Below are positions 7,645 to 38,884 of a stretch of DNA of 64,000 nt, piece by piece (the stretch's first letter is position 1; the number at the start of each line of letters is the position of its first letter). Both the position numbers and the translations under genes were made by a program. Below the pieces are notes generated by a model. The model made no database searches. It was not told the DNA's origin and saw only the letters and a list, made by a program, of their open reading frames with translations. The DNA is from Halalkalicoccus sp. CG83 (GTDB taxonomy: Archaea > Halobacteriota > Halobacteria > Halobacteriales > Halalkalicoccaceae), in NCBI RefSeq assembly GCF_037081715.1, contig NZ_JAZDDH010000001.1, forward strand, positions 2,108,001 to 2,172,000, given 5' to 3'.

Positions 7645-7937
7645 TCGGTAGTCACCCTCCGCTCAGAGACCTCGTTTTTGCACCCATCGTCTGGGTGAGT
7701 TTCGCATTGCTGGTCTTTCCGCTCGCGATTAGTAAGATCGATTCACGGTTGTTCTCCCCGCTTGCCGTTCCGGGATACGTCCTCTTCGTCCTCATGACCA
7801 TCGTCGGCAACGTTCTGCCATGGGTTCGGAACTTTAGCTTCCGACTTTATTGGGCACCCTTCGTCGTCATCTGTTATGGCATCTCGGTTGCCGTCGGGAT
7901 CAGTTACCATACGTTCCGTCAGCGATTCGACGTGTGA
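7641..7937 (+). CDS. Small integral membrane protein
   Basis: The 98-residue product has three hydrophobic segments (about 11-29, 42-60 and 70-88) with few charged residues between. Its ATG overlaps the stop of the desuccinylase-like gene by 4 nt, implying one transcript and a linked function such as a membrane partner. No family recognised. Confidence 0.7.
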   Translation: MIGSHPPLRDLVFAPIVWVSFALLVFPLAISKIDSRLFSPLAVPGYVLFVLMTIVGNVLPWVRNFSFRLYWAPFVVICYGISVAVGISYHTFRQRFDV

Positions 7938-7982
7938 ACCATCCTCCCTGCTTGCTCACGGCTGCGCACGGAACACGGCAAA

Positions 7983-9854
7983 TCAGGCAACGCAGGCGTG
8001 TGCCACACCGTTATCGTACGTGATCGATCGGGTCGCACAGTAGCGACGTTCGGTGGTCGTCGTCTCGTAGACGTCCGCCCCGACGTCGTCGAACAGGGCC
8101 GGTCGTTCGGCGTACGACTGGCGATAGAGGAGCACCTCCTGATCGGCGTCCTCGGGCGCGGCGATCTCGGCGGGCGCCGTCCCAGTACGCGTCAGTACCT
8201 CGACCGTCAGGACGTCGGTGCCGATCGGCGTCGTCGTCTGCTGGCTGACCGTCTCCAGCGCGGCGAGCTCGGCCCCGGAGTACGAGTACGTCACTCGTTC
8301 CTCGGGGAAGGCCGGAGAGTCGATCGTCGCGGGACCGGCGAGGGCCATCACGCCGGGGAAGAGAACGCAGAACGCGACGGGCGCGGCTGTGGCGGTCGTG
8401 GGGTCGATACGGCGGACGCTCCACCGAAACCCGAGCGCACAGAGCAGGGCGACCGGGACGTACAGGAACGCGAACCACCGGCTCGGGAGGAAGTTCCGCA
8501 GGCCGACCGCCGGCGTTCCGATCGCCACCACGGAGAGCGCGCAGGCGACGCAAACGAGGGTGAGCCAGGTGTGTGTCGCCCGTCGAAGCGCGACTAACGC
8601 TCCGACCGTCCCACCGGCAGCGAACAACAGGAGCCCGCCCGCCTCGAGGAGGTACGTCAGCGACGTCAGCGGTCGAAGTCCGTAGTCCGCCTCGGGCGCG
8701 CCGAGTTCGATCGCAAGGTTGAGCCACCCGAACTCAGCGAGGTAGGTCTCGCGCAGGAACAGGAGGGTTCGTTCGGCGAAACCGAGGCTAGAGCCGCTGT
8801 ACGGCGTGATTATTAGAAGCGCGGCGAGCACGCAGACGAACGGGACGAACAACCACACGAGGTTCACCGATCCGGCGCGGGGCATGGCGCGAACGAGCGA
8901 CGGGCCGGCCTGCGCGAGAACCGCCATTCCGACGATCGTCGCCGCGATCACCGACGATACCTGGTGGGTGAACACGAGCGCAAGCGAGAAGACGACGAAC
9001 AGCACGATCGAACGGACGGAGTAACCCTCGCGGACGATCCGGAGGAGGGGGACCAGCAGTCCGAGGGTGAAGACCAGTCCGAGACTCGTCGGAACGAGGT
9101 AGATCCCCCAGAGGATCGCGTGATCGCTGAAGGCGTACATCGCGGCCGCGAACGCCGCCCACCGGGGCGGGAGCAGCGAGGCGCCCAGAACGTAGAGGAG
9201 TAACGTCGTCGCGATCGGAACGACGAGGCCGATCGAGAGCCAGAGCGCGATTCGCGGGGAGACGTCGGCTATGAGGACGGTGGCGACGACGGAGAGGTGA
9301 TAGAGCGGTGCGTAGTAGTACTTGCTGTCGCTCAGTGCCTCGAGCGAGCCATCGGCCGCGATCCCGGCGACGTACGTCGGGACGTGCGACCAGGTATCGA
9401 GGCCGATGTAGCCTGCGGTCGTCGCCAGCGCGGCGAACCGGACGACGAGCGCGATCACGAGGACCTGTCCCAACAGTACCGTCGGCGAGAAGTCGTTCTC
9501 GTCAACGAGGGCGATCTGCAGGAGGACTCCGGTTCCCAGCGTTCCCGCTCCGAGATAGAAGGGGACCGTTCTGCTGCCGGCGATCGTAGCGTACCACGAG
9601 AGCACCAGCGCCCCGATGAGCACGACGCTGGGTAGCGCCATCGCCACCGACCGTGGAACCGTCGGGCGCTCGTAGTCGACGGGATCACGTCTCGTGACGA
9701 CTGCGAACGTGAGTGCGCCTCCCGCGACGACCGGTGGAAGGGTGAGCAGATAGACGGGAGCAGCCGATCGACTCGTGAGGACGATCGATAGGGCGAAGAG
9801 CGTGCTGCCGAGTGCGAGGAGAAGTGCGACGTCGCGAACATCGAGACGGCCCAT
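7983..9854 (-). CDS. Polytopic GT-C-like membrane protein, putative glycosyltransferase
   Basis: The 623-residue product has roughly a dozen or more transmembrane helices followed by a soluble C-terminal tail of about 110 residues. An extracytoplasmic loop near residue 155 has GLDTWSHVP followed by DSKYYYAPLYHLS, resembling the acidic first-loop motif of GT-C lipid-linked sugar transferases. On that basis it may transfer a sugar from a dolichyl-phosphate carrier on the outer face of the membrane; this is inference from topology. It stands alone on the minus strand, with AT-rich promoter-like sequence between it and the divergent gene at 10140. Confidence 0.7.
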   Translation of the reverse strand: MGRLDVRDVALLLALGSTLFALSIVLTSRSAAPVYLLTLPPVVAGGALTFAVVTRRDPVDYERPTVPRSVAMALPSVVLIGALVLSWYATIAGSRTVPFYLGAGTLGTGVLLQIALVDENDFSPTVLLGQVLVIALVVRFAALATTAGYIGLDTWSHVPTYVAGIAADGSLEALSDSKYYYAPLYHLSVVATVLIADVSPRIALWLSIGLVVPIATTLLLYVLGASLLPPRWAAFAAAMYAFSDHAILWGIYLVPTSLGLVFTLGLLVPLLRIVREGYSVRSIVLFVVFSLALVFTHQVSSVIAATIVGMAVLAQAGPSLVRAMPRAGSVNLVWLFVPFVCVLAALLIITPYSGSSLGFAERTLLFLRETYLAEFGWLNLAIELGAPEADYGLRPLTSLTYLLEAGGLLLFAAGGTVGALVALRRATHTWLTLVCVACALSVVAIGTPAVGLRNFLPSRWFAFLYVPVALLCALGFRWSVRRIDPTTATAAPVAFCVLFPGVMALAGPATIDSPAFPEERVTYSYSGAELAALETVSQQTTTPIGTDVLTVEVLTRTGTAPAEIAAPEDADQEVLLYRQSYAERPALFDDVGADVYETTTTERRYCATRSITYDNGVAHACVA

Positions 9855-10139
9855 CTACGTAGCGCATCGTCCCCCGGTGCCATGTGTCCGTTGATGCTAC
9901 TCGAAGAACGGTCTCTCGACGGATCGAGTTACCATCAATCGTTAATCGCTATTCCCTATTTCGGTGAACTCGCTACAATAAGTCGTCCATGTGCTGTGAT
10001 AGCAGTTCTGATCCAACGTTTCAGCGTCTCTGTGTGGAGATTAATGAACTACTGAATCCAAAGGCACTTATTTACTACTATCAGAGTAATCTCTGATGGC
10101 CGTTCGAGAATACTCCACTACCCCCGGAGAGGTACGACC

Positions 10140-10541
10140 ATGATGTGGCAAGATCTGATCTTCATGATCGGCAGTAGTCTTTCGATCGTATTTCTTGCCC
10201 CGACGCTTCGCGACACAGACGCCCAGGTCCCGCTTGCGACGAGTGCTCCCTCAATGATGATCGGTGGCGTCTATGCGTTTACGTTCGCGACGCTCGGCAT
10301 GACGTTTTCCGCCGTCGGGGCGTTCGCCGCCTGTCTCATGTGGACGCTAATCGGCTTCTTTCGCGCGCCACGATCGCCCTACAACCGGTCACATGCGGTT
10401 GGTGATCTCCGTGAGCGATTCGAACTCTTCTGCAACGATGCTCGGTACTGGGTTGAGCGAAAGCGTCGCCAGGACACCGTTTCGCTCGAGTCGTACGTCT
10501 CGGCCGATACAGCATCCTCCGTCACAGTTCACGCCGACTGA
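10140..10541 (+). CDS. Conserved membrane protein, unknown
   Basis: The 133-residue product begins MMWQDLIFMIGSSLSIVFLAPTLRD, with a first transmembrane helix, a second and third around residues 40-75, and a charged cytoplasmic tail containing an RERFELFCNDARYWVERKRR helix. ATG 10143 is an equally good start. The pattern of two short hydrophobic blocks, an FRAPRSPYNRSH linker and a basic tail suggests a small membrane scaffold. No function recognised; transcribed alone. Confidence 0.65.
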   Translation: MMWQDLIFMIGSSLSIVFLAPTLRDTDAQVPLATSAPSMMIGGVYAFTFATLGMTFSAVGAFAACLMWTLIGFFRAPRSPYNRSHAVGDLRERFELFCNDARYWVERKRRQDTVSLESYVSADTASSVTVHAD

Positions 10542-10843
10542 AGGACCAGTAGGCGTTTCGATCCTTCTACAACGACAGGCCGTATCGGAACGGCCGAGCG
10601 TTGCACCAGACGTGTCGAAAAGGAACTGGGGGAGCAGACTGCAACGATGCCCCTATTTCCGATGTTGTGAACGGACTTCGATTCGACTCATGACCAACAC
10701 AGCGCGACCTAGATGTCGATGATGATGTCCTCTCTGATCGATCTACCAGCTTCCATCAAATGAGGGGAGTCTTATCGTTTAGGAGAAGAGTCCTGAGAGC
10801 TGATCAGAAGCGTTTCGAGTATCGAAGGACGTATCGAGGCTAA
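10542..10843. other. Intergenic with a possible coding remnant
   Basis: The frame of the preceding gene stays open after its stop as far as TGA 10668-10670 and reads ERCTRRVEKELGEQTATM, which looks like protein but has no start. It may be the 3' end of a lost gene. The last 150 bases look like promoter and leader sequence for the MscS gene. Confidence 0.3.
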
Positions 10844-11905
10844 ATGGAACAGCTTGCTGAGCTACTCGCTCCGTTCACTCTTCCGATGCAGATACTGATC
10901 GTCCTACTCGGATCGGTAGGTTCTGCAAAGGTGATCGAGCTCACGGGTCGATGGATCGCACCCTCAATCGAATCAACAACTGGATCGGTCCGTCGTGTCA
11001 TTCTCCGCGAGATCTACGTCCCACTCTACCTCTCGGTATTTCTCTACGGGTTGTTTCTCAGTCTCGAACTCATCGGCGCTCCAATTCTCAGACTCTTCGA
11101 GTCGGTTATCCTGTCCGCAATCGTCGTTCTGTGGACGCGTGCAGGGATCCGTGCCGGCAGTAACTCACTAGAGGAAATCAAAGAACACGATACCCACTAC
11201 GAATTCGCTCCCGTATTCAAGAACCTCTGGTCGGCTGCAGTTGTTGTCATCGCCGCCATCGCGTTGTTACTCGTCTGGAACATCGACATCACCCCGCTGC
11301 TCGCTTCGGCTGGCGTATTCGGGATCGTTCTTGGATTTGCAGCCCAGGAGGCGATCGCGAACTTCGTCGGTGGAATCGCTCTCTACTTTGATGATACGTA
11401 CAAGATCGGTGATTTCGTTGTTCTGGAGTCGGGTGAGAAGGGCTCCGTCAGCGATATCGGGATCAGGAGCACGACACTGCTCACACCCGATCGGGTGCTG
11501 ATCACGGTCCCGAATTCGGTACTGAACTCCGCGCAGGTCCGCAACGAGTCGGCTCCACAGCGCCAGAAACGGATCCAGATCCCGATCGAGGTCGCATATG
11601 GGACGAGTACTGAGACGGTTGAGGAGATCCTCCTATCGATCGCGGCAGACGTCACTGGAGTTCTGCCCTCGCCCCAACCGATCGTTCTGTTTCGAGGATT
11701 CGGTGATTCTGCGCTACGGTACGAGCTTCAGGTCTTCATCTCACACCCGCTTCGAGAGCCGCGTGTCGTCGACGACATCAACCGTGAAGTCCAGCAGCAG
11801 TTTGCCGAGAACGACATTGAGATTCCGTTCCCGCAACGCGAGATCTCGCTGCGAGATGACGATGACTCGCTCAAGGATGGCGGACAGCCCCGTTACCCCG
11901 AGTAA
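10844..11905 (+). CDS. mscS: MscS-family small-conductance mechanosensitive channel
   Basis: This channel releases solutes when membrane tension rises after osmotic down-shock. The 353-residue product has hydrophobic helices at about 14-32, 58-78, 84-100 and 128-146, then the pore-lining TM3 with the family signature (residues about 155-190: GVFGIVLGFAAQEAIANFVG, then FDDTYKIGDFV). The cytoplasmic beta domain and alpha/beta domain follow, and the tail is acidic. Length and motif order are typical of MscS. It is monocistronic. Confidence 0.92.
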   Translation: MEQLAELLAPFTLPMQILIVLLGSVGSAKVIELTGRWIAPSIESTTGSVRRVILREIYVPLYLSVFLYGLFLSLELIGAPILRLFESVILSAIVVLWTRAGIRAGSNSLEEIKEHDTHYEFAPVFKNLWSAAVVVIAAIALLLVWNIDITPLLASAGVFGIVLGFAAQEAIANFVGGIALYFDDTYKIGDFVVLESGEKGSVSDIGIRSTTLLTPDRVLITVPNSVLNSAQVRNESAPQRQKRIQIPIEVAYGTSTETVEEILLSIAADVTGVLPSPQPIVLFRGFGDSALRYELQVFISHPLREPRVVDDINREVQQQFAENDIEIPFPQREISLRDDDDSLKDGGQPRYPE

Positions 11906-11997
11906 GTGGGAAACTCGCGGGGACAGACGCGCGCCGACCGAAAGAAGGAGCATCGCCTCGTTCCCGAAGCGGAGGCGGTAGAACGAGACATCCGCAA

Positions 11998-12150
11998 CGG
12001 GTTCCGCTCATCGTTCTTATCGAGCGCGACGGGGAGATTCTTACACTGTACGGGGATACGCGGATCGACCCAGATGGCGTCGCAACGGTCTTCTCTCGAG
12101 GTGGCGTCGATGATCAGACCGTGAACGCCGTTATCCGTCCGTCCAAATAG
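11998..12150 (+). pseudogene. Remnant of a TrkA-C (RCK_C) domain gene
   Basis: The frame reads LIVLIERDGEILTLYGDTRI, then DPDGVATVFSRGG, and ends at TAG 12148. This matches the conserved beta core of TrkA-C domains, which sense ligands on cation and chloride transporters. No start or transporter part precedes it, so it is probably the 3' end of a deleted gene just behind mscS. The short length makes the family assignment tentative. Confidence 0.5.
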
Positions 12151-12296
12151 ACTACTTAGTCGTATTCCGCCGGAGGAGCTTGCGGCTACCACCGAGTGGA
12201 TCTCAGCGGCTCCAAGACCCCGATCGGTTTCTCTGACCAGACTCCCGTTGTATGAGTGGCGGTCCAACTCAGAAAGTCGACGAAAACGAAGGGCAG

Positions 12297-13232
12297 CTAT
12301 GATGACGGAGAGAGTTCGACGTCCACATCATCAGGACGTAACGTCTCGGGCAGATCCCCTTCTCGATCACCGGTAATGTCGGCCAGGATTTCGGAGAGAT
12401 ATCCGTTGAACAGTGCTGGATGTTCACTCATCGGGAAATGACCGATATCACTCATCTCGACTGCTATTGCTCCTTCCCCGATACCATCCGCTACCGCACG
12501 CCCATCCGCTGGGTCAGTCAGGTAATCGTACTCGCCGTTGACTGCATAGAGTGGACATTCACTGGCATCGATCTGATCGAGTTTATCGCGGTAGTCGTGA
12601 TCGACCGAATAGTAGTAGAGATCCCCTTTGAACACGCCTGTCGCGCCTTGCTCGTACAGATACATGGTCTCTCGACGGGTCTGTTCTGGGCTTTGTTTAG
12701 CCATCAATCCCCAGCAGGAGTACGCGTTGACCTCCGTCGTATTGACGTGGGGGTGATCAAGCCAATCGATATGGAAGCCAGGACTATACGCGCCACATTC
12801 GAGTCCGATCAGCGCTCGGAACCGATCCGGATACCAGTCGGCTAGCTCCAACGTGATATTGCCGCCCATACTCGAGCCCATATAGATCGGATCCTGAAGG
12901 TCGAGCGCATCCGCGATACCGACGATCGTCGCGGCAAACTGTTCGGCATCCAATTCGTAGTCTTCCTCCCACCAGTCGTCACTGGTTGGTGGAACGGATT
13001 TCCCGTGGAAGGGCAGATCGTATGCGATCACCCGAAACTCGTCGGTGATATCGTCATCTGCGAGGAGATGCCGCCATTCCTGGTTGTTACACCCAGCAGT
13101 ATGCTGGCAGAGGAGTGGAATTCCATCGTCTGGGCCGTTTTCCTCGAAGTAAATTCGGTAATCGGTTCCATCGACATCGACGTGAACGTACTTGCCGGTG
13201 ATCGGCTCGACCGTACCTGGTTCAGTGCTCAT
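12297..13232 (-). CDS. Alpha/beta hydrolase with serine nucleophile
   Basis: The 311-residue product is an alpha/beta-hydrolase-fold enzyme. The oxyanion region is CQHTAG (about 42-47), the nucleophile elbow is GSSMGG (Ser121), a plausible acid lies near GEYDYL, and the catalytic His near DIGHFP. An insertion rich in Trp and Tyr (about 86-95 and 160-210) would form a cap over the active site. Its ATG overlaps by one base the TAA of the SCP2-like gene upstream (TAATG), so the two are co-translated. Substrate unknown; an ester or a C-C bond adjacent to a carbonyl are both possible. Confidence 0.85.
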   Translation of the reverse strand: MSTEPGTVEPITGKYVHVDVDGTDYRIYFEENGPDDGIPLLCQHTAGCNNQEWRHLLADDDITDEFRVIAYDLPFHGKSVPPTSDDWWEEDYELDAEQFAATIVGIADALDLQDPIYMGSSMGGNITLELADWYPDRFRALIGLECGAYSPGFHIDWLDHPHVNTTEVNAYSCWGLMAKQSPEQTRRETMYLYEQGATGVFKGDLYYYSVDHDYRDKLDQIDASECPLYAVNGEYDYLTDPADGRAVADGIGEGAIAVEMSDIGHFPMSEHPALFNGYLSEILADITGDREGDLPETLRPDDVDVELSPSS

Positions 13233-13663
13233 TAGAGGTTCCCTCCGTTGTTGTGGGCTTTGCGCAGCAAGTCGAGCATCCGCTGAAACGCACGCAAATT
13301 CTGGAAAATGGCCTTGTTGTTACCGGTTAGTTGGAGATGACCATCATCGCCTTTCACTGCACTTCGATAGTGGGAGGCGATAATCTCGTGATTGAATGCT
13401 GGAGGGATTTCTTGAACGAACTCCTCCCACGCTTCGGTGTCACCTTCGACCCCGAAGGACCACTGATGATTCATCGCCGGGTTCGGAACGATCGCATCGA
13501 TTTCCCCGCGATCGATCTGGAGGAGAAACCGATCGTCACCGATTTCAATATAAAAATTTTCGTCGAATTTATCGTGGCCGCGGACCTTCATCTCCGGGTC
13601 GCTGTTGACCGTTTCTTTGTAGTGTTCCCACCACGCTTGTGAGCCAAGTTCTGTTTCTGTCAT
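13232..13663 (-). CDS. SCP2 sterol-carrier-like domain protein
   Basis: The 143-residue soluble protein begins MTETELGSQAWWEHYKETV and contains FYIEIGDDRFLLQIDRGEID followed by a helical C terminus, the pattern of SCP2/sterol-carrier domains that bind hydrophobic ligands. It lies first in a two-gene operon with the hydrolase, so it may deliver a lipophilic substrate to that enzyme. A 14-nt perfect palindrome at 13671-13684 sits directly upstream of its start and may control the pair. Confidence 0.7.
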   Translation of the reverse strand: MTETELGSQAWWEHYKETVNSDPEMKVRGHDKFDENFYIEIGDDRFLLQIDRGEIDAIVPNPAMNHQWSFGVEGDTEAWEEFVQEIPPAFNHEIIASHYRSAVKGDDGHLQLTGNNKAIFQNLRAFQRMLDLLRKAHNNGGNL

Positions 13664-31389: not shown

Positions 31390-32427
31390 CTACGGGACGA
31401 TGACGGCCCGGCCCTCGATCTCGTTGTGCTCGAGTGCCTCCGCGACCTCGTTGATCTCCGAGAGGTCGTACTCGCTGGTCTCGAGGTGCATCTCGCCCTG
31501 CTCGACGAGCGAGACCAGTTCCTGGAGCTCGGTGTACTTGCCGACGATGTTGCCGACGAAGGAGAACTCGCCGTCGACCAGCGCCTGTGAGGGTTCGTGG
31601 ACGTGGCCGCCGTAGCCGATGATGTGGTGATCGCCGCCGCCGGCGACGATGTCGGGCGCGAGCGCCGTCGTCTGGTCCGCGCCGACGAAGTCGAGCACCT
31701 GCTGGGCGCCCTCGCCGTCGGTGATCCCCTCGACCGCCTCGGCGACGTCCTCATCGCTCGAGTTGATCGTGTGATCCGCGCCCAGGCGATCCGCGAGCGA
31801 GAGCGCTTCGTCCTTGAGGTCGACGGCGATCGTGGTCGTCGCGCTCATCGCCTCGAGCGCCTGCAGCCCGATGTGGCCGAGCCCGCCGATCCCGATCACG
31901 ATCGAGTAGCTGCCCGGATACAGGTGCGGAACGGCCTTCTTGACGGCGTGATAGGCGGTGATCCCCGCGTCGGCGTGCGGTGCGATCTCGACGGGATCGA
32001 CGGAGTCGAGCTTGATCGTCGCGCGCTCGGAGGTCAGCAGGTAGTCCGCGAACCCGCCATCGGTGGTCAGCCCGGGGAACTCGCCGTTCTCGCAGTGCAT
32101 GTCGTCGCCGAGTCGACAGGGCCGACACTCGCCGCACGTCATCAGCGGATGACAGATCACCTTGTCGCCGACCTCAACGGTCGAGACCTCCTCGCCGACC
32201 TCGACCACCTCGCCGGCGTTCTCGTGACCGAGCGTCATCGGGAGGTCCTGCTCGACGTAGTCCGTCCACATCCCCTCGATGATGTGATTGTCCGTCTGAC
32301 ACCATCCCGCCCCTTCGATCTCAACGACGACGTGGTCCGACCGGCCCGCCTCCGGCCGGTCTACCTCGTCAATCGTCAGCCCCTCGCTCATGTCCTCTGT
32401 ATACTCGTGGAGTCGTGCGGCTTCCAT
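31390..32427 (-). CDS. Zinc-dependent alcohol dehydrogenase (MDR family)
   Basis: The 345-residue medium-chain dehydrogenase oxidises an alcohol with NAD(P)+. Catalytic zinc ligands lie in GWCQTDNHI, LGHENAGEVVEVG and the later PHADAGIT region; structural zinc has four cysteines in CGECRPCRLGDDMHC. The Rossmann motif is IGIGGLGHIGLQAL. It is divergent from an amidohydrolase/DUF59 pair with a gap of only 57 nt that must hold both promoters. Confidence 0.92.
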   Translation of the reverse strand: MEAARLHEYTEDMSEGLTIDEVDRPEAGRSDHVVVEIEGAGWCQTDNHIIEGMWTDYVEQDLPMTLGHENAGEVVEVGEEVSTVEVGDKVICHPLMTCGECRPCRLGDDMHCENGEFPGLTTDGGFADYLLTSERATIKLDSVDPVEIAPHADAGITAYHAVKKAVPHLYPGSYSIVIGIGGLGHIGLQALEAMSATTTIAVDLKDEALSLADRLGADHTINSSDEDVAEAVEGITDGEGAQQVLDFVGADQTTALAPDIVAGGGDHHIIGYGGHVHEPSQALVDGEFSFVGNIVGKYTELQELVSLVEQGEMHLETSEYDLSEINEVAEALEHNEIEGRAVIVP

Positions 32428-32484
32428 GATACCACGTGACGAGACATCGGTGACAGGCAAAAAGATTATGCAGTATACCGCGAG

Positions 32485-33597
32485 ATGGGACGATCAGCTC
32501 GTCGAAACTGTCATTATCGTCCGTTCCTGACATCCGGTGCCGTGTATCAACACGAAGGCGAGGACGTGTTCGTGATCGACGGTCACGTCCACTGGTGGGA
32601 CGCGAGCAAGGAGAACATCAAACACGAGGGTGGCGAGCAGTTCATCCGCTGTTTCTACGACTACCACACCGGGTTCACGCCCGACGAGCGCGAGTGGAGT
32701 CTCGAGGAGTACCGCAAGTACGACGCCGACCGGATGCTTCAGGACATGTTCGGTAGCGGTCATACCGACATGGGGATCTTCCAGCCGACGTACCTCAACG
32801 AGTTCTACAAGGAGGGATTCAACACGATCGACCGGTGTGCCGAGCTCGGGGACGAACACCCGTCGCGGTTCGTCGTCAACGGCCGGTTCGACCCGCGGGA
32901 GGGCGAGGCCGGCCTGCGGGAGCTCGAGCGCCAGAAGGAGGAGTACGACGTAAAGGGGGTGAAGCTCTACACCGCCGAGTGGCGCGGCGACTCGAAGGGA
33001 TGGCGCCTCGACTCGGACGAGGCGTTCGAGTACCTTGAGAAATGTGCCGACCTCGGCATCAGGAACATCCACGCCCACAAAGGCCCCACCATCAGGCCGC
33101 TGAACCGCGACGCGTTCGACGTCGCCGACGTCGACGCCGCGGCCACCTCGTTTCCCGAGCTCAACTTCATCGTCGAGCACGTCGGGCTCCCCCGGCTGGA
33201 CGACTTCTGCTGGATCGCCGCCCAGGAGCCGAACGTCTACGGCGGGCTGGCGGTCGCCGCGCCGTTCGCCGAGACGCGCCCGAGAAAGTTCGGCGAGATC
33301 ATGGGCGAGCTGCTCTACTGGCTCGGCGAGGACCGGATCCTGTACGGGAGCGACTACGCCCTTTGGGAACCCGAATGGCTCGTCGAGGCGATGATGGAAG
33401 CGGAGCTGACGCCCGAACAGCGCGAGGAGTACGGCGTCGAACTCGACCTCGAGACGAAGAGGAAGATCATGGGCGAGAACGCCGCCAGGCTCTACGACAT
33501 CGACATCGAGCGCCAGAAGGAGATCCTCCAGGACGACGGGATCAGCGAACGGTTCGACCTGGCCGACCAGTACGGCGAGGAGGCGACGGCCGACTGA
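32485..33597 (+). CDS. Amidohydrolase-2 family protein (ACMSD-like fold)
   Basis: The 370-residue product is a metal-dependent TIM-barrel protein of the amidohydrolase-2 group: VIDGHVHWWDASKEN has the HxH motif, RNIHAHKGPTIRPL and FIVEHVGLPRLDDFCW supply further His residues and LYGSDYALWEPE the Asp. ATG 32485 is used; GTG 32542 (VYQHEGEDVFVIDGH) is a plausible shorter start. The DUF59 gene follows with a 2-nt gap. Homologues with this sequence style are encoded beside propane-type soluble di-iron monooxygenases, where they are needed but unexplained. Confidence 0.82.
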   Translation: MGRSARRNCHYRPFLTSGAVYQHEGEDVFVIDGHVHWWDASKENIKHEGGEQFIRCFYDYHTGFTPDEREWSLEEYRKYDADRMLQDMFGSGHTDMGIFQPTYLNEFYKEGFNTIDRCAELGDEHPSRFVVNGRFDPREGEAGLRELERQKEEYDVKGVKLYTAEWRGDSKGWRLDSDEAFEYLEKCADLGIRNIHAHKGPTIRPLNRDAFDVADVDAAATSFPELNFIVEHVGLPRLDDFCWIAAQEPNVYGGLAVAAPFAETRPRKFGEIMGELLYWLGEDRILYGSDYALWEPEWLVEAMMEAELTPEQREEYGVELDLETKRKIMGENAARLYDIDIERQKEILQDDGISERFDLADQYGEEATAD

Positions 33598-33599
33598 CG

Positions 33600-34388
33600 A
33601 TGAGCCGACACCAGCGCCAACCGATCGACGCCGGGACCGTTCGGGATCGACTTCGGAGGGTCACCGATCCGGAGCTCGATCGATCGATCGTCGAGCTCGA
33701 CTACGTCGACGAGCTCCGGATCGACGACGAAAGCGTCGAGGTCGAGTTCACGCTGCCGACCGCGTGGTGCTCGCCGGCGTTCGCGTGGATGATGGCCGTC
33801 GACGCCCGAGACGTGCTCGAGACCCACCCCGCGGTCTCGGAGGCGACGATACGGCTCCACGATCACATGCACGAGGCGGAGATCAACGAGGGCGTGAACG
33901 ACCGATTGGCGTTCGAGGACGTCTTCGACGAGGCCGACGGCGACGTCGAGGAGACCCGCAGAACGCTCGACGAGAAGGCGCGACTCGCCCGGCAGTATCG
34001 TGCGGTCGACGCCCTGCTCGAGGCGGGACTGAAGCCCGAACAGATCGTCCGACTCACCCTCGAGGACGTGGACGTCGAGACCGACTCCGGCACGTCGAGG
34101 GACGAGGACGAGGACCGCGCGGTCGTCCGCGTCGACGACGCGCTCTCCATTTGCGTCGAGGCGGAGCCGATCCGCCGCTACGTCGAGAAGGCGACGGCGC
34201 TGGACGTCGTGAGCGCCTCGACGGACGCGCTGTTCGCGACGCCGGCGGGCGATCCGATCCCCGCCGACGAGTTCGAGACGGTCCACAAACGGGGACGGCT
34301 GGCCGGGACCAACATGAGCGGCCAGGGTCACGTCTGTGAGAACCTCGGCGAGGCGCGGATCGGCGGGCCGTCCGCGGCCGACGACTGA
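33600..34388 (+). CDS. MIP18/DUF59 iron-sulfur assembly-like protein with C-terminal extension
   Basis: The 262-residue product begins with a MIP18 (DUF59) domain: LRRVTDPELDRSIVELDYVD then VEFTLPTAWCSPAFAWMMAV, with the Cys in the usual place, to about residue 95. The C-terminal region (about 105-262) is acidic and helical, ending GTNMSGQGHVCENLGEARIG. DUF59 proteins assist Fe-S or di-iron centre assembly. It is co-transcribed with the amidohydrolase and near an alcohol dehydrogenase, the accessory set seen with propane monooxygenases, but no monooxygenase is present here. Confidence 0.82.
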   Translation: MSRHQRQPIDAGTVRDRLRRVTDPELDRSIVELDYVDELRIDDESVEVEFTLPTAWCSPAFAWMMAVDARDVLETHPAVSEATIRLHDHMHEAEINEGVNDRLAFEDVFDEADGDVEETRRTLDEKARLARQYRAVDALLEAGLKPEQIVRLTLEDVDVETDSGTSRDEDEDRAVVRVDDALSICVEAEPIRRYVEKATALDVVSASTDALFATPAGDPIPADEFETVHKRGRLAGTNMSGQGHVCENLGEARIGGPSAADD

Positions 34389-34622: not shown

Positions 34623-34874
34623 GGTGGGATCGAACGGGCGAGCGCTGGACTTCTACCGCTACTATGGACGATCGGCGCTGGCGGGAACGAGAACGAAAAC
34701 GAAAGCCACGAAGCGGACGACGAGTCCCCGATCGCGCAGCTCCCTCACCGGTACGTTACTGGCGAGATCGACGAGTCGACCTCCGAGCGATGGTTCGACC
34801 GGCTTCTCGAGACCGAGTGGATCGAGGAGAACGTCGCACGGACCGACCTCGAGCCGCTCGAGGAGGTCAGCTGA
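34623..34874 (+). pseudogene. Remnant of a SHOCT-domain protein gene
   Basis: The frame contains ENENESHEADDESPIAQLPH then RYVTGEIDESTSERWFDRLL, which matches the SHOCT helix-hairpin motif (RYxxGEIDExxFERxLDxLL) found at the end of many haloarchaeal membrane proteins. No ATG, GTG or TTG lies in frame between the stop at 34602 and the SHOCT part, so the gene is 5'-truncated or decayed. It overlaps the 3' end of ptfB by 8 nt. Confidence 0.5.
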
Positions 34875-35316
34875 GGAACCGCTTGAGGCGTCTGAACAAC
34901 CCCTTCTCGGGGTCACCGCCCCGGGGTTCCTCTCCCTGCGAGCCGTCCCCGCTCGCGCCCTCGGCGTCGGCCGTCGTCTCGGTCGGCTCGGTCGTCGTTG
35001 CGGCGCCGTCGCCGCCCGCGCGCTCGACCGCCTGGTTCACGAGCCCCTCGGCGTCGTTGACGGCGTCCTTGACGGTTCCCTTCACCAGCGTGGTGTTCTC
35101 GAACCGATCGCGGTTCACCGACGTGTCGGCGGCGATGATCACGGCGTCGGCCTCCTCGATCTCGGCGGCGGTGAGCTCGTCCTCCGCGCCCATCGCCCCC
35201 TGGACCTCGACGCGGATCTCGTGGCCGAGCTTCTCGGCGGTCTGCTCGAGGTTCTCCGCGGCCATCTGGCTGTGTGCGATTCCGGTCGGACATGACGTGA
35301 CTGCGACGAGTTTCAT
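34867..35316 (-). CDS. ptfB: Fructose-specific PTS EIIB component
   Basis: EIIB carries the phosphoryl group from EIIA to fructose bound to EIIC. The 149-residue product begins MKLVAVTSCPTGIAHSQMAA, with the phospho-accepting Cys9, and has the full FruB domain to about residue 100 (ADAVIIAADTSVNRDRF, VKGTVKDAVNDAE). A low-complexity Thr/Ala/Gly-rich linker and a basic tail (RLKRFLS) follow. It is last in the operon and overlaps ptsI by 4 nt. Confidence 0.93.
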   Translation of the reverse strand: MKLVAVTSCPTGIAHSQMAAENLEQTAEKLGHEIRVEVQGAMGAEDELTAAEIEEADAVIIAADTSVNRDRFENTTLVKGTVKDAVNDAEGLVNQAVERAGGDGAATTTEPTETTADAEGASGDGSQGEEPRGGDPEKGLFRRLKRFLS

Positions 35317-36992
35317 TGGTGTAGTAGGTTCGTAACCGCGTGTCTGGTCGGCGATTCGAGTGCGTCCCCTGCGAGCGCCGCGGCCGCGTCGGCGTCGGTC
35401 TCCACGATCCGGGCTTTGACGTCGGGGATCGTCACGGCGCTCATGCTCAGTTCGTCGAGTTCCATCCCTACGAGCAGTTCGGTGAGGTCGGGATCGCCCG
35501 CCATCTCCCCGCACATGCCGATCCAGGCGTCGTTCGCGTGGGCGGCCTCGACGCTCCGGGCGATCGCGCGCAACACCGGCGGGTGGAGCGGGTCGTGCAG
35601 GTCGGCGACGCGGTCGTCGTCGCGCGCCGCGGCCATCACGTACTGCGCGAGGTCGTTCGTGCCGATGCTGAGGAAGTCGACCCGCGCAGCGAGCTCCTCG
35701 GCGACGAGGACGGCACCGGGCGTCTCGATCATTACGCCGAGTTCCGGACCGGCGTGCTCGATCCCCTCGCTCGTGAGGTCGTCGGCGACCCGCTCGACGG
35801 TCTCGAGCGCGGACTCGAGTTCCTCGACCGTCGAGACCAGCGGGAACATCACCGCGAGGCGCCCCTCGCCCGCCGCGGCGCGCAACAGCGCGCGCAGTTG
35901 GCTCTCGAACAGGCCCGCGTCGGGCCCCAGCGACCGGCGGATACCCCGCTCGCCGAGGAACGGGTTCTGGCTGTCGGGCAGCTCCAGGTAGGGAATCGGC
36001 TTGTCGCCACCCACGTCGAGCGTGCGGACGACGACCCGTCCCTCGGGGAACGCAGAGAGCGCCTCGCGGTAGGTCTCGTACTGTTCGTCCTCGTCGGGCG
36101 GCGACTCGCGGTCGAGAAAGAGGAACTCGGTGCGAAAGAGGCCGATCCCGTCGGCCCCCTGCTCGAGCGCGCCGTCCAGTTCGGCGAGCGTCCCGAGGTT
36201 CGCGGCGACCTCGATCTCTCGGCCGTCCGCGGTGGCGACCGGCTCCCTTCTGACCTCGACGTCTCGAACCGCCGCGGCCCGTTTCCGGACGGCATCGTCG
36301 GGTTCGACGATCACCTCGCCCGACTCGCCGTCGACGACTATCTCGCTCCCGTCCTCGATCTCCTGGAGCGCGTCGCCGAGGCCGACGACCGCGGGCAGTC
36401 CGAGCGACCTGGCGAAGATCGCGGCGTGCGAGGTCCGCCCGCCGAGGGCGGTCGCGAAGCCCGCGACCCGATCGGGGTCGAGCTTCGCCGTGTCGCTGGG
36501 AGTGAGCCGCTCGGCGAGCAGGATCGACCCTTCGGGCAGGTCCGCGAGGTCCGTCCCCCCGGCATCGGTGAGCACTCGAAGGAGTCGGTCACGGACGTCC
36601 CGCAGATCGTCGGCACGCTCGGCCATCCGTCCCTCCATCCCCTCGAACTGTTCGATGGGTCCCGAGAAGCCCTCCCTGACGGCGTGCTCGGCGGGCAGGC
36701 CGTCGGCGATCGCGTCCTCGACGCCCTCGGCGATCTGGGGATCGTTGAGGAACTGGACGTGCGCGCCGAACACCTCTGCCTCCTCCTCGCCGACGCGCTC
36801 CTCGGCGCGCTCGCGCTCGGACTCGAGGTCGGCCTCGGCCGTCTCGCGGGCCGATTCGAACCGCTCGCGCTCGGCGTCGGCGTCGACCGTCGAGGGCTCC
36901 GGCGGGTCGCGTAGCTCGATCTCCTCGGCGTACCAGACGACCCGACCGAGCCCCGAGAGCGGCGTCACGCCGGTACCGGTGAGCGTTCTCAT
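35313..36992 (-). CDS. ptsI: PTS enzyme I (PEP-protein phosphotransferase)
   Basis: EI takes phosphate from PEP and passes it to HPr. The 559-residue product starts MRTLTGTGVTPLSGLGR, has the phospho-His189 in GGRTSHAAIFARSLGLPAVVG, GIGLFRTEFLFLDR and the PEP-binding barrel with EIGVMIETP-type and FLSIGTNDLAQYVMAAAR motifs, plus the Cys in GMCGEMAGDP. The ATG at 36992 follows the ptsH stop by one base. Complete PTSs are rare in archaea but known in Haloferax. Confidence 0.95.
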   Translation of the reverse strand: MRTLTGTGVTPLSGLGRVVWYAEEIELRDPPEPSTVDADAERERFESARETAEADLESERERAEERVGEEEAEVFGAHVQFLNDPQIAEGVEDAIADGLPAEHAVREGFSGPIEQFEGMEGRMAERADDLRDVRDRLLRVLTDAGGTDLADLPEGSILLAERLTPSDTAKLDPDRVAGFATALGGRTSHAAIFARSLGLPAVVGLGDALQEIEDGSEIVVDGESGEVIVEPDDAVRKRAAAVRDVEVRREPVATADGREIEVAANLGTLAELDGALEQGADGIGLFRTEFLFLDRESPPDEDEQYETYREALSAFPEGRVVVRTLDVGGDKPIPYLELPDSQNPFLGERGIRRSLGPDAGLFESQLRALLRAAAGEGRLAVMFPLVSTVEELESALETVERVADDLTSEGIEHAGPELGVMIETPGAVLVAEELAARVDFLSIGTNDLAQYVMAAARDDDRVADLHDPLHPPVLRAIARSVEAAHANDAWIGMCGEMAGDPDLTELLVGMELDELSMSAVTIPDVKARIVETDADAAAALAGDALESPTRHAVTNLLHQ

Positions 36993-36993
36993 C

Positions 36994-37275
36994 TCACTCC
37001 TCACCCTCCTCGGGCGTCGAAAGGACCTCCTCGAGCGCGTCGAGGGCCGCCTCCGCGTCCTCGCCCTCGGCACTCAGTCGGACCTCCTCGCCGTGTTTCA
37101 CGCCGAGACTGGTCACCGCGATCATGCTGCTTGCGGCCACCGCCTCCGCGTCCTCGCCCTCGGCGACCGGCGCGACGGTGACGTCGGCGTCGAACTCGTT
37201 TGCGGTCTCGACGAACTTCGCCGCCGGACGGGCGTGCAGCCCCGCCTCGGGGACGATCTCCACGACTCGCTCCAT
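36994..37275 (-). CDS. ptsH: PTS phosphocarrier HPr
   Basis: HPr shuttles phosphate from EI to EIIA. The 93-residue product has the active His14 in EAGLHARPAAKFVETANEF and the central SMIAVTSLGVKHGEEV region with a Ser at the regulatory position of Gram-positive HPr. Its ATG overlaps the ptfA stop by one base. Confidence 0.95.
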   Translation of the reverse strand: MERVVEIVPEAGLHARPAAKFVETANEFDADVTVAPVAEGEDAEAVAASSMIAVTSLGVKHGEEVRLSAEGEDAEAALDALEEVLSTPEEGEE

Positions 37276-37739
37276 CAGGCGACCGCCTCCCTGAGCGTCT
37301 CGCGGACGGCCTCGGGCGATTCCGCCTCGTGAAGCGAGTCACGCACCTCCTCGTGCATGAGTGCACGAGAGAGCGAACTGAGCATCCCGAGGTGCTCCTC
37401 GCTTCCTCCCTCGGGGACCAGCAGCATGAAGATCAGCGTCGCGGGTTCGTCGTCCATCGCGTCGAAGTCCACGCCGCGATCCGAGCGGGCGAACACCACC
37501 GTCGGCCGGGTCACCGCGTCGGTCTGGGCGTGGGGGATGCCGATGCCCATCCCGACGCCGGTGGTCGTCTCCTCCTCGCGGGCGAACAGCGCCTCGAGGG
37601 CGGTCTCTCGGTCCTCGACGCGACCCGCCTCGACGGCCATGTCGAGCAGGTGTTCGATGCAGGCGTCCTTCTCGGCGGGCGGTTCCTCGAGCGATACGAG
37701 TTCTCGGGGTAGCAGCGTGTCGATGTCCTGTGGGTCCAT
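37275..37739 (-). CDS. ptfA: Fructose-specific PTS EIIA component
   Basis: EIIA accepts phosphate from HPr on a histidine. The 154-residue product is a PTS_IIA type-2 (fructose/mannitol) domain with TTGVGMGIGIPHAQTDAV, His70 being the phosphorylation site, and LIFMLLVPEGGSEEHLGMLS. It lies between ptfC and ptsH in the operon, 23 nt after ptfC. Confidence 0.95.
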   Translation of the reverse strand: MDPQDIDTLLPRELVSLEEPPAEKDACIEHLLDMAVEAGRVEDRETALEALFAREEETTTGVGMGIGIPHAQTDAVTRPTVVFARSDRGVDFDAMDDEPATLIFMLLVPEGGSEEHLGMLSSLSRALMHEEVRDSLHEAESPEAVRETLREAVA

Positions 37740-37762
37740 GAGTAGTAGTGGGTCCGCGGTCG

Positions 37763-38884
37763 TCAGTCCGCGCTCTGCGGTTCGTTCGCGATTCGATCCT
37801 CGAAGTCCGGCTTGATCAACGTTGCCACGGTCGCGGTGACGACCGTTCCGAGGGCGATACAGCCGAGGAACAACAGCGCACTGTTCGAAAGGAGGACGAC
37901 GAAGATCCCGCCGTGGGGGGCGGGCATCGTCACCCCGAGCGCCATCGCGGTCGCTCCGGCGACGGCGCTGCCGGCGATGGCGCTCGGGATCACCCGCAGC
38001 GGATCGGCCGCCGCGTAGGGGATCGCGCCCTCGGTGATGAACGCGAGTCCGAGCGGCACCGCGGCCTTCGCGTTCTCGTACATCTCGGCGGCGTACTTCT
38101 CGGGCGCGATGAAGTTCGACAGCGCGAGTCCCAGCGGCGGGACCATGCCGGCGATCATCACCGCGGCCATCGGCGCGTAGATCTGGTCGGCGACCAGCAC
38201 GGTGCCGAAGACGTAGGCGACCTTGTTGATCGGGCCGCCCATATCGGTGGCCATCATCGCGCCGAGGATCGCACCCAACAGGAGGGCGTTCGTCCCCTCG
38301 AGCCCCGAGAGGAAGTCGGTCAGCGCACTGTCGACGATGGCGATCGGCACGCCGAGCCCGACGATCACGATCGGCGCGAGCACCAGCGTGGTCACGACGG
38401 GAATGACGAGCACGGGCATCATCGGTTCGATCATCCCGGGGACGTCGAGCCCCTTCAGCCAGCGTGCGACGTAGCCCGCGAGCAGCCCGGCGACGATCGC
38501 GCCTAGGAAGCCCGCGACCGCGCCATCAGCGTTGAATCCGACGAGATCGCCGGCGGCCGCGATGAGCGGCTCCTGCTGGACGGCGTACGAGAGGATGAAT
38601 CCCGGTGCGAGCCCCGGTCGGTCGGCGATCGCGTACGCGATATACCCCCCGAGGATGGGAATCATGATCGTCAGCCCGAGCACGCCGATCTCGGCGAAGT
38701 ACCACCCGAGAGTCCCCGTCTGTTCGAACACCGCCTCCGTGTCGCCGATCGCGAACCCGATCGCGAGGAAGATCCCGCCGATCGTCACGAACGGAATCAT
38801 GAACGAGACCCCGGTCATCAGGTCCTCCTTGACCGAGGTCATGTACGATCGCATTCGTTCTTCGGCCCTGTCTTGGGTTGCCAT
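37763..38884 (-). CDS. ptfC: Fructose-specific PTS EIIC permease
   Basis: This integral membrane protein binds and translocates fructose. The 373-residue product has about nine hydrophobic helices and family motifs LMTGVSFMIPFVTIGGI, ATDMGGPINKVAYVFG and FITEGAIPYAAADPLRVIP. It opens the transcript ptfC-ptfA-ptsH-ptsI-ptfB and is separated from pfkB by 93 nt containing tandem TTTTGATCG repeats. Confidence 0.95.
   Translation of the reverse strand: MATQDRAEERMRSYMTSVKEDLMTGVSFMIPFVTIGGIFLAIGFAIGDTEAVFEQTGTLGWYFAEIGVLGLTIMIPILGGYIAYAIADRPGLAPGFILSYAVQQEPLIAAAGDLVGFNADGAVAGFLGAIVAGLLAGYVARWLKGLDVPGMIEPMMPVLVIPVVTTLVLAPIVIVGLGVPIAIVDSALTDFLSGLEGTNALLLGAILGAMMATDMGGPINKVAYVFGTVLVADQIYAPMAAVMIAGMVPPLGLALSNFIAPEKYAAEMYENAKAAVPLGLAFITEGAIPYAAADPLRVIPSAIAGSAVAGATAMALGVTMPAPHGGIFVVLLSNSALLFLGCIALGTVVTATVATLIKPDFEDRIANEPQSAD

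Follow-up and report, generated by a model that had tools for sequence, protein, structure and literature searches.

The prm and mim operons of bacteria encode soluble di-iron monooxygenases (SDIMOs) for propane and acetone, and they also carry two genes whose products, in the excerpts available from the operon descriptions, are called 'predicted amidohydrolase' or 'amidohydrolase-like' and 'protein of unknown function', without an assigned function. In the accessible portion of one report, the mim cluster was strongly induced on acetone and 2-hydroxyisobutyrate, an acetone-acetol-methylglyoxal route was proposed, and the proteome of Actinomycetospora on 2-hydroxyisobutyrate contained Adh1 at 6.1%, MimC at 3.8% and the amidohydrolase-like protein at 3.2% (PMC7176365). 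In this work, we analyzed a cluster composed of an alcohol dehydrogenase gene (ADH), an amidohydrolase-2 gene (AH; Amidohydro_2, PF04909) and a DUF59 gene, located at positions 31390-34388 of a stretch of 64,000 nucleotides (the window, whose positions are used throughout) from Halalkalicoccus sp. CG83 (G000; 3.64 Mb, 97.09% complete). An original prediction had described these gene types as a divergent cluster with no hydroxylase, had likened them to actinobacterial monooxygenase accessory genes, and had proposed that the hydroxylase lies elsewhere, was lost, or that the proteins have an independent role. Placement, orientation and the lack of a hydroxylase in the cluster were all confirmed by Pfam matches and the scanned neighbours; the gene types match the actinobacterial ones, the host being a haloarchaeon, and among the three options the independent role is favoured.

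With moderate confidence, we regard the cluster as an intact, self-standing metabolic or catabolic module and not as the remnant of a monooxygenase operon; in it, AH and an obligate DUF59 partner would act together with the dehydrogenase on short alcohols or ketones, and these proteins probably fulfil an independent function, beyond helping to build a monooxygenase. AH and DUF59 would act as an enzyme and its partner, and not as hydroxylase maturation factors, because the two are never separated from each other, the metal site of AH is of a catalytic type, several unrelated lineages retain the pair in the absence of a hydroxylase, and, where the two part from the hydroxylase, they do so together.

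Gene layout and distribution in haloarchaea

The ADH gene (31390-32427, minus strand) encodes a zinc-dependent medium-chain alcohol dehydrogenase of 345 aa (Pfam ADH_N/ADH_zinc_N), and is divergent from the AH gene (32542-33597, plus strand; PF04909, E 5.4e-49) and the DUF59/FeS_assembly_P gene (33600-34388, plus strand; 262 aa with a C-terminal domain of ~140 residues; PF01883, E 1.3e-13), with 2 bases between the AH stop codon and the DUF59 start. The AH reading frame reaches back to an ATG at 32485; in the alignment, conserved homology starts only at the GTG at 32542, and therefore the listed ATG start is probably too early and the leader from 32485 probably non-coding. The divergent intergenic region (32428-32541) contains a AAAAAGATT(A/G)TG element, common to the window and to two other loci (L001 and L002) in a three-sequence MAFFT alignment; such elements are probable promoters. 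The scanned neighbours of the trio encode an O-methyltransferase, an M20 peptidase, a MutS-domain protein and enzymes of the phosphotransferase system (PTS)/PEP-utilising type, and no oxygenase, Rieske, reductase or chaperonin gene was found among them.

The distribution of the three genes was assessed in a sample of 293 Halobacteriales genomes, which are related to one another, so that Fisher p-values for the co-occurrence overstate independence. AH carriers, picked by hand at at least 66% identity and with weaker matches (up to 37%) excluded, amounted to 79 genomes, and exactly the same 79 carry DUF59. An ADH ortholog is present in 142 genomes, namely in 78 of the 79 carriers (the sole exception, G147, is a genome 77% complete) and in 64 without AH, indicating that AH-DUF59 requires ADH, whereas ADH does not require AH-DUF59. 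Thus AH-DUF59 is an inseparable unit, and ADH is needed by it yet also occurs alone. At the level of loci (the best 80 of 386 AH relatives by identity, with no random draw), DUF59 follows AH in 74/74 haloarchaeal loci, a count of 33 in a reduced neighbour comparison being an artefact of composition filtering, and ADH (>150 bits) lies in the fetched DNA of 67, divergent in 65 and codirectional in two (L007, L069). This conservation is far above chance, and in the flank comparison only these three genes are conserved across most haloarchaeal loci.

The nearest named AH locus is that of Halalkalicoccus paucihalophilus (85% identity), and intact AH genes are kept across many haloarchaeal families. 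AH was detected in 4 of 150 genomes in a class-wide search and in 4 of 299 in a phylum-wide search, and no relative appeared in viral contigs searched with a bacterial AH. By title or abstract, no publication on the haloarchaeal module was found in the open-access literature, nor were haloarchaeal expression data for it.

Could these be generic enzymes adjacent by chance, resembling prm accessory proteins at family level only? The frequency of ADH orthologs in haloarchaea without AH (the 64 genomes above) would suit this explanation; conversely, the window AH shares ~60% identity with SDIMO-linked copies, as compared with at most 37% for the other haloarchaeal matches listed (E<=1e-20), AH and DUF59 co-occur perfectly, and their order is kept in most bacterial loci. 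For AH-DUF59, chance adjacency is largely refuted, and for ADH it is still a candidate; as an account of the whole cluster, it is the least probable of those weighed here.

A hydroxylase elsewhere in the genome was not found either: a PF02332 profile search detected no di-iron hydroxylase in the host genome, and a query with the PrmA-type alpha subunit, which had no positive control of its own, gave no match there. The PF02332 search works, since it returned matches in four bacterial genomes, out of 15 that were reached through loci, and in 2 of the 293 Halobacteriales (G142 and G230); it returned none in 14 control genomes and none in the 79 AH carriers. The genome search for a GroEL partner, also proposed in the original prediction, yielded only partial matches of 25-33% identity to an SDIMO-type GroEL query, which we take to be archaeal chaperonins. 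An SDIMO (prm/mim) operon is defined by a PF02332 hydroxylase and a dedicated GroEL-like chaperonin, and here neither was detected. Because lack of the hydroxylase is the rule among haloarchaea, whose clade falls outside the monooxygenase-linked rows (see below), a recent local loss is not supported.

Several additional observations were made in these genomes. The PF02332 clusters of G142 (L124, C1:2866000-2885000; 7932-13514) and G230 (L125, C7; 7657-11439) share the same make-up, with TmoB-like, Rieske-like and MmoB-like open reading frames and neither AH nor DUF59; with subunit names assigned by eye, they look like the toluene-4-monooxygenase type, rare in haloarchaea. A second, broken AH-DUF59-ADH cluster, with AH in two pieces and partial DUF59 and ADH, is present in G170 (C30:138734-141149) in addition to an intact one. 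On another contig of the host, G000:C3:180499-180686 (L134) is a decayed fragment of a second ADH copy, in pieces 77% and 59% identical and with stop codons; no AH or DUF59 match lies in the surrounding 18 kb. Directly downstream of the trio, the window contains a bacterial-type PTS cluster (EIIA, EIIB, EIIC, HPr-like, enzyme I; 34867-38884) in a haloarchaeon.

Bacterial relatives and descent

The 26 bacterial AH loci came from plasmids, GTDB loci and other genomes. The nearest bacterial relatives are ~60% identical to the window AH and include genuine prm/mim operons, with 60-63% for the SDIMO-linked Acidisoma copies; DUF59 adjoins AH in 26/26 loci, in most of them in the haloarchaeal order. 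In loci and trees, AH and DUF59 are orthologous to the SDIMO-linked family, adjacent and in this order. The kinship with prm/mim accessory genes claimed in the original prediction is thus well founded, less strictly for ADH: the ADHs neighbouring bacterial AH, including those of SDIMO clusters, are 44-48% identical to that of the window, for which a 2-propanol activity may at most be predicted.

A hydroxylase alpha subunit is encoded in 17 of the 26 loci, corresponding to Acidisoma (three), L078, Caballeronia (two), Aminobacter, Bradyrhizobium, Paracoccus, Ponticoccus, Gemmobacter, Rhodococcus (two), Rhizobium CB3060 and three others. In the other nine (L079, L080, L089, L090, L098, L117-L119 and L123), among them Thermomicrobium, Thermoflexus, Peribacillus and Rhizobium, the fetched DNA encodes no hydroxylase; L117-L119 are relatives of the Thermoflexus locus L080, whose genome is also that of L109. 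GroEL accompanies the hydroxylase in 17/17 linked loci, as opposed to 0/9 hydroxylase-free ones. Furthermore, Acidiphilium rubrum encodes a hydroxylase with GroEL at L131 without AH or DUF59, and AH-DUF59-ADH apart at L079; likewise, according to the available part of a study on Mycobacterium sp. AT1, the three genes lie elsewhere on the chromosome and only GroEL adjoins the monooxygenase (PMC6849523).

In the AH tree, built on the 54 rows (of 107) that were left once near-duplicates had been removed (L099 and L100 being left out as copies of L072 and L023), haloarchaea form one clade (99/99) and bacteria another (97/89), sister to each other. Within the bacterial clade, the hydroxylase-free Thermoflexus/Thermomicrobium pair branches first, followed by Peribacillus, above which hydroxylase-linked and unlinked rows are mixed. 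Haloarchaea are also one clade (100/99) in the DUF59 tree (43 of 101 rows, with the same two copies left out), beside which a long Rhodococcus row (L096, 1.72) is placed with weak support; therefore, this tree is no independent confirmation of the root. Regarding the phylogeny suggested by the original prediction, the genes did not branch with families never linked to monooxygenases, and their sister group includes both linked and unlinked copies.

These results bear on a scenario in which a haloarchaeal ancestor received a full prm/mim operon and then lost the hydroxylase, leaving the accessory genes. The predominance of SDIMO linkage among the nearest bacterial relatives (17/26) is in line with it, as are the mixed labels within the bacterial clade, which imply gains and/or losses of linkage. 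We nevertheless consider this origin unlikely, given that the genes are intact and conserved in many haloarchaeal families, the hydroxylase is found in 0/79 carriers, the earliest bacterial branches are hydroxylase-free, and a tree forcing haloarchaea together with the linked rows (plus L079) was rejected (p-AU 0.016).

Structure and metal site of AH and DUF59

The AH model is a TIM barrel (pLDDT 87.4), with 3irs as the best fold match (Z 24.7, rmsd 2.9, 268 aligned residues), dihydroxybenzoate decarboxylases at Z ~21 and, lower, SfbO (Z 18.1) and DitZ and TruffO (Z 18.8-19.0), these last two being, as we presume from their titles, similar to dinuclear oxygenases of the ARO type. A PDB sequence search with AH as a single sequence returned nothing at E<=0.001, and one with the AH profile returned only 3irs (E 0.0079). 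Residues H34, H36, H198, H232 and D290 (numbered from the 32485 start) are conserved, and so are K160, H61, H196 and C242. AH thus combines the PF04909 match with the HxH/H/D residues of its metal-dependent hydrolases, and H34, H36, H198, H232, D290 and K160 fit a predicted canonical mononuclear-type site of the hydrolase/decarboxylase kind. The PF04909 decarboxylases, hydratases and lactonases (ACMSD, dihydroxybenzoate decarboxylase, PDC lactonase) and 3irs share the AH barrel and the HxH/H/H/D site, at only 12-20% identity.

Available excerpts of the literature indicate that PF04909 also includes dinuclear monooxygenases, the AROs (PMC10811679; PMC10401708), which raises the possibility that AH itself is such an oxygenase (like AibH2, PtmU3 or SfbO) and replaces the SDIMO. 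The presence of SfbO, DitZ and TruffO in the fold search, a partner of the iron-cluster-assembly type, and the extra conserved K160, H61, H196 and C242 would be compatible with this. The metal ligands of AibH2, as given in the accessible portion of its description, are D25, H27, H211, E265, D337 and H340 (PMC7782822); at the equated positions, matched by motif order along the barrel and not by superposed coordinates, AH presents H, H, H, H, D and then Leu/Ile at D+3, thereby differing from ligands 1, 4 and the last in the 48 ingroup rows, with one gap at the first position. By the same motif order, AH displays no DxH, beta-6 Glu or DxxH. AH is most likely no ARO, because the AibH2 ligand motif is absent; besides, decarboxylases and hydrolases score above AROs (Z up to 24.7), and no Rieske or reductase gene lies among the scanned neighbours. 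Thus, AROs share Pfam family and fold with AH and differ in the oxygenase ligand motif, and we judge the replacement of the SDIMO by AH to be very improbable.

DUF59 proteins act in Fe-S assembly. PF01883 matched 31/31 DUF59 members, and D23 P24 E25, C57, H89 and C246, the last near the C-terminal end, are conserved; with this match, the DPE motif and the conserved Cys, the protein belongs to the MIP18/DUF59 (FeS_assembly_P) type, and it misses the NCBIfam equivalog cut-offs for PaaD/SufT (paad_haloarch, 29.7/180 bits; SUF_assoc, 22.9/143.4; FeS_long_SufT, 19.6/202.6). In the model (pLDDT 92.0), the N-domain is CIAO2B-like (Z 12.7), and the C-domain (residues ~124-241; 33969-34322) matches Cre (Z 10.2, 100 aligned, 3.4 A) and XerA (Z 8.1). 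Z values of this size may lack specificity in the case of helical domains, and none of the 18 Pfam families listed for DUF59 members is an integrase. As a lead only, the C-domain is possibly a domesticated, inactive Cre/XerA-like recombinase fold. In comparison with MIP18/CIAO2B and SufT/PaaD-type proteins, with which it shares the N-domain fold, DPE and conserved Cys, the window protein displays this extra domain, with its possible tyrosine-recombinase-like fold, and has an obligate AH partner.

AH and DUF59 could also assist generally in the maturation of dinuclear or Fe-S enzymes, with another client in haloarchaea. In addition to the Fe-S role of the DUF59 family, operon-borne maturation factors do exist, as the operon GroEL is needed for the monooxygenase in the available part of one study (PMC6849523). 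However, no conserved oxygenase or Fe-S client lies next to the haloarchaeal module, the metal site conserved in AH is of a catalytic type, and where the genes are separated, GroEL remains with the hydroxylase and AH-DUF59 do not. On balance, this role seems distinctly unlikely.

Proposed function and comparison with known systems

According to the self-standing module that we favour, the DUF59 protein, with its MIP18/CIAO2-like N-domain and its own C-domain, would load or hold the AH metal site, or would be a subunit of AH. For ADH, the predicted substrate is a short alcohol, secondary or alpha-hydroxy, which it would oxidise. AH-DUF59 would hydrolyse or hydrate a ketone, hydroxyketone or aldehyde belonging to that route and to the 2-propanol/acetone type, or would cleave one of its C-C bonds; the substrate class (2-propanol, acetone, acetol) is inferred from the SDIMO-linked relatives. 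In bacteria, the module would often stand behind a propane or acetone SDIMO and process its product, whereas in haloarchaea, Thermomicrobium/Thermoflexus and some others it would use alcohols and ketones obtained otherwise. The abundance of the Actinomycetospora amidohydrolase-like protein, near the MimC level, is more in keeping with an enzyme than with a maturation factor. Tentatively, AH-DUF59 may even be a new metalloenzyme of two components, in which the PF04909 barrel has its own metal-delivery subunit and the latter joins a CIAO2-like domain to a recombinase-like fold converted to protein binding. It would catalyse an undescribed step in the breakdown of short ketones or alcohols, and would predate the monooxygenases, to which bacteria attached it later, and not depend on them.

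Several points weigh against the module as we read it. The ligand H36 is Ala in 2 of the 48 ingroup rows (L090, L101), and the outgroup branch of the AH tree is long (2.03), so that its root is not firm. Seven of the 74 haloarchaeal loci have no ADH in the fetched DNA, ADH sits elsewhere in some sampled genomes (e.g., G080, G096, G196), and it may be a loose partner. The haloarchaeal flanks outside the three genes are too variable to name a pathway, and Actinomycetota are thinly sampled by two Rhodococcus plasmids.

Among bacterial neighbours, VOC and DJ-1 genes recur near some AH copies; as glyoxalase-like markers of a methylglyoxal route they were not retained beyond a lead, these being common genes. 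In the Thermoflexus relatives L117 (11963-16776) and L119 (12865-17110), the module is followed by genes that by eye are CoxS/CoxL-like and molybdopterin cytidylyltransferase-like, perhaps for a molybdenum hydroxylase, an aldehyde oxidase of the same pathway.

The retention of the module without a monooxygenase in 79/293 archaeal genomes and several bacteria constitutes a natural experiment separating the role of AH and DUF59 from hydroxylase maturation, and makes the hydroxylase-free carriers clean systems for studying that role. Among known systems, the group V/VI SDIMO operons (prm of Gordonia/Rhodococcus, mim of Mycobacterium) resemble the window in having AH followed by DUF59 with an ADH nearby (AH identity ~50-62%); conversely, the window has no hydroxylase, reductase, coupling protein or GroEL, and its ADH is divergent. 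Thermoflexus L080 and the Thermomicrobium roseum plasmid locus L089 share with it an AH-DUF59 pair without hydroxylase and an adjacent ADH, but in the order DUF59-AH-ADH, whereas Peribacillus L090 and Rhizobium N324 L098 share the hydroxylase-free pair with other partners (DJ-1/PfpI, and glyoxalase I with a 2-hydroxyacid dehydrogenase, respectively).

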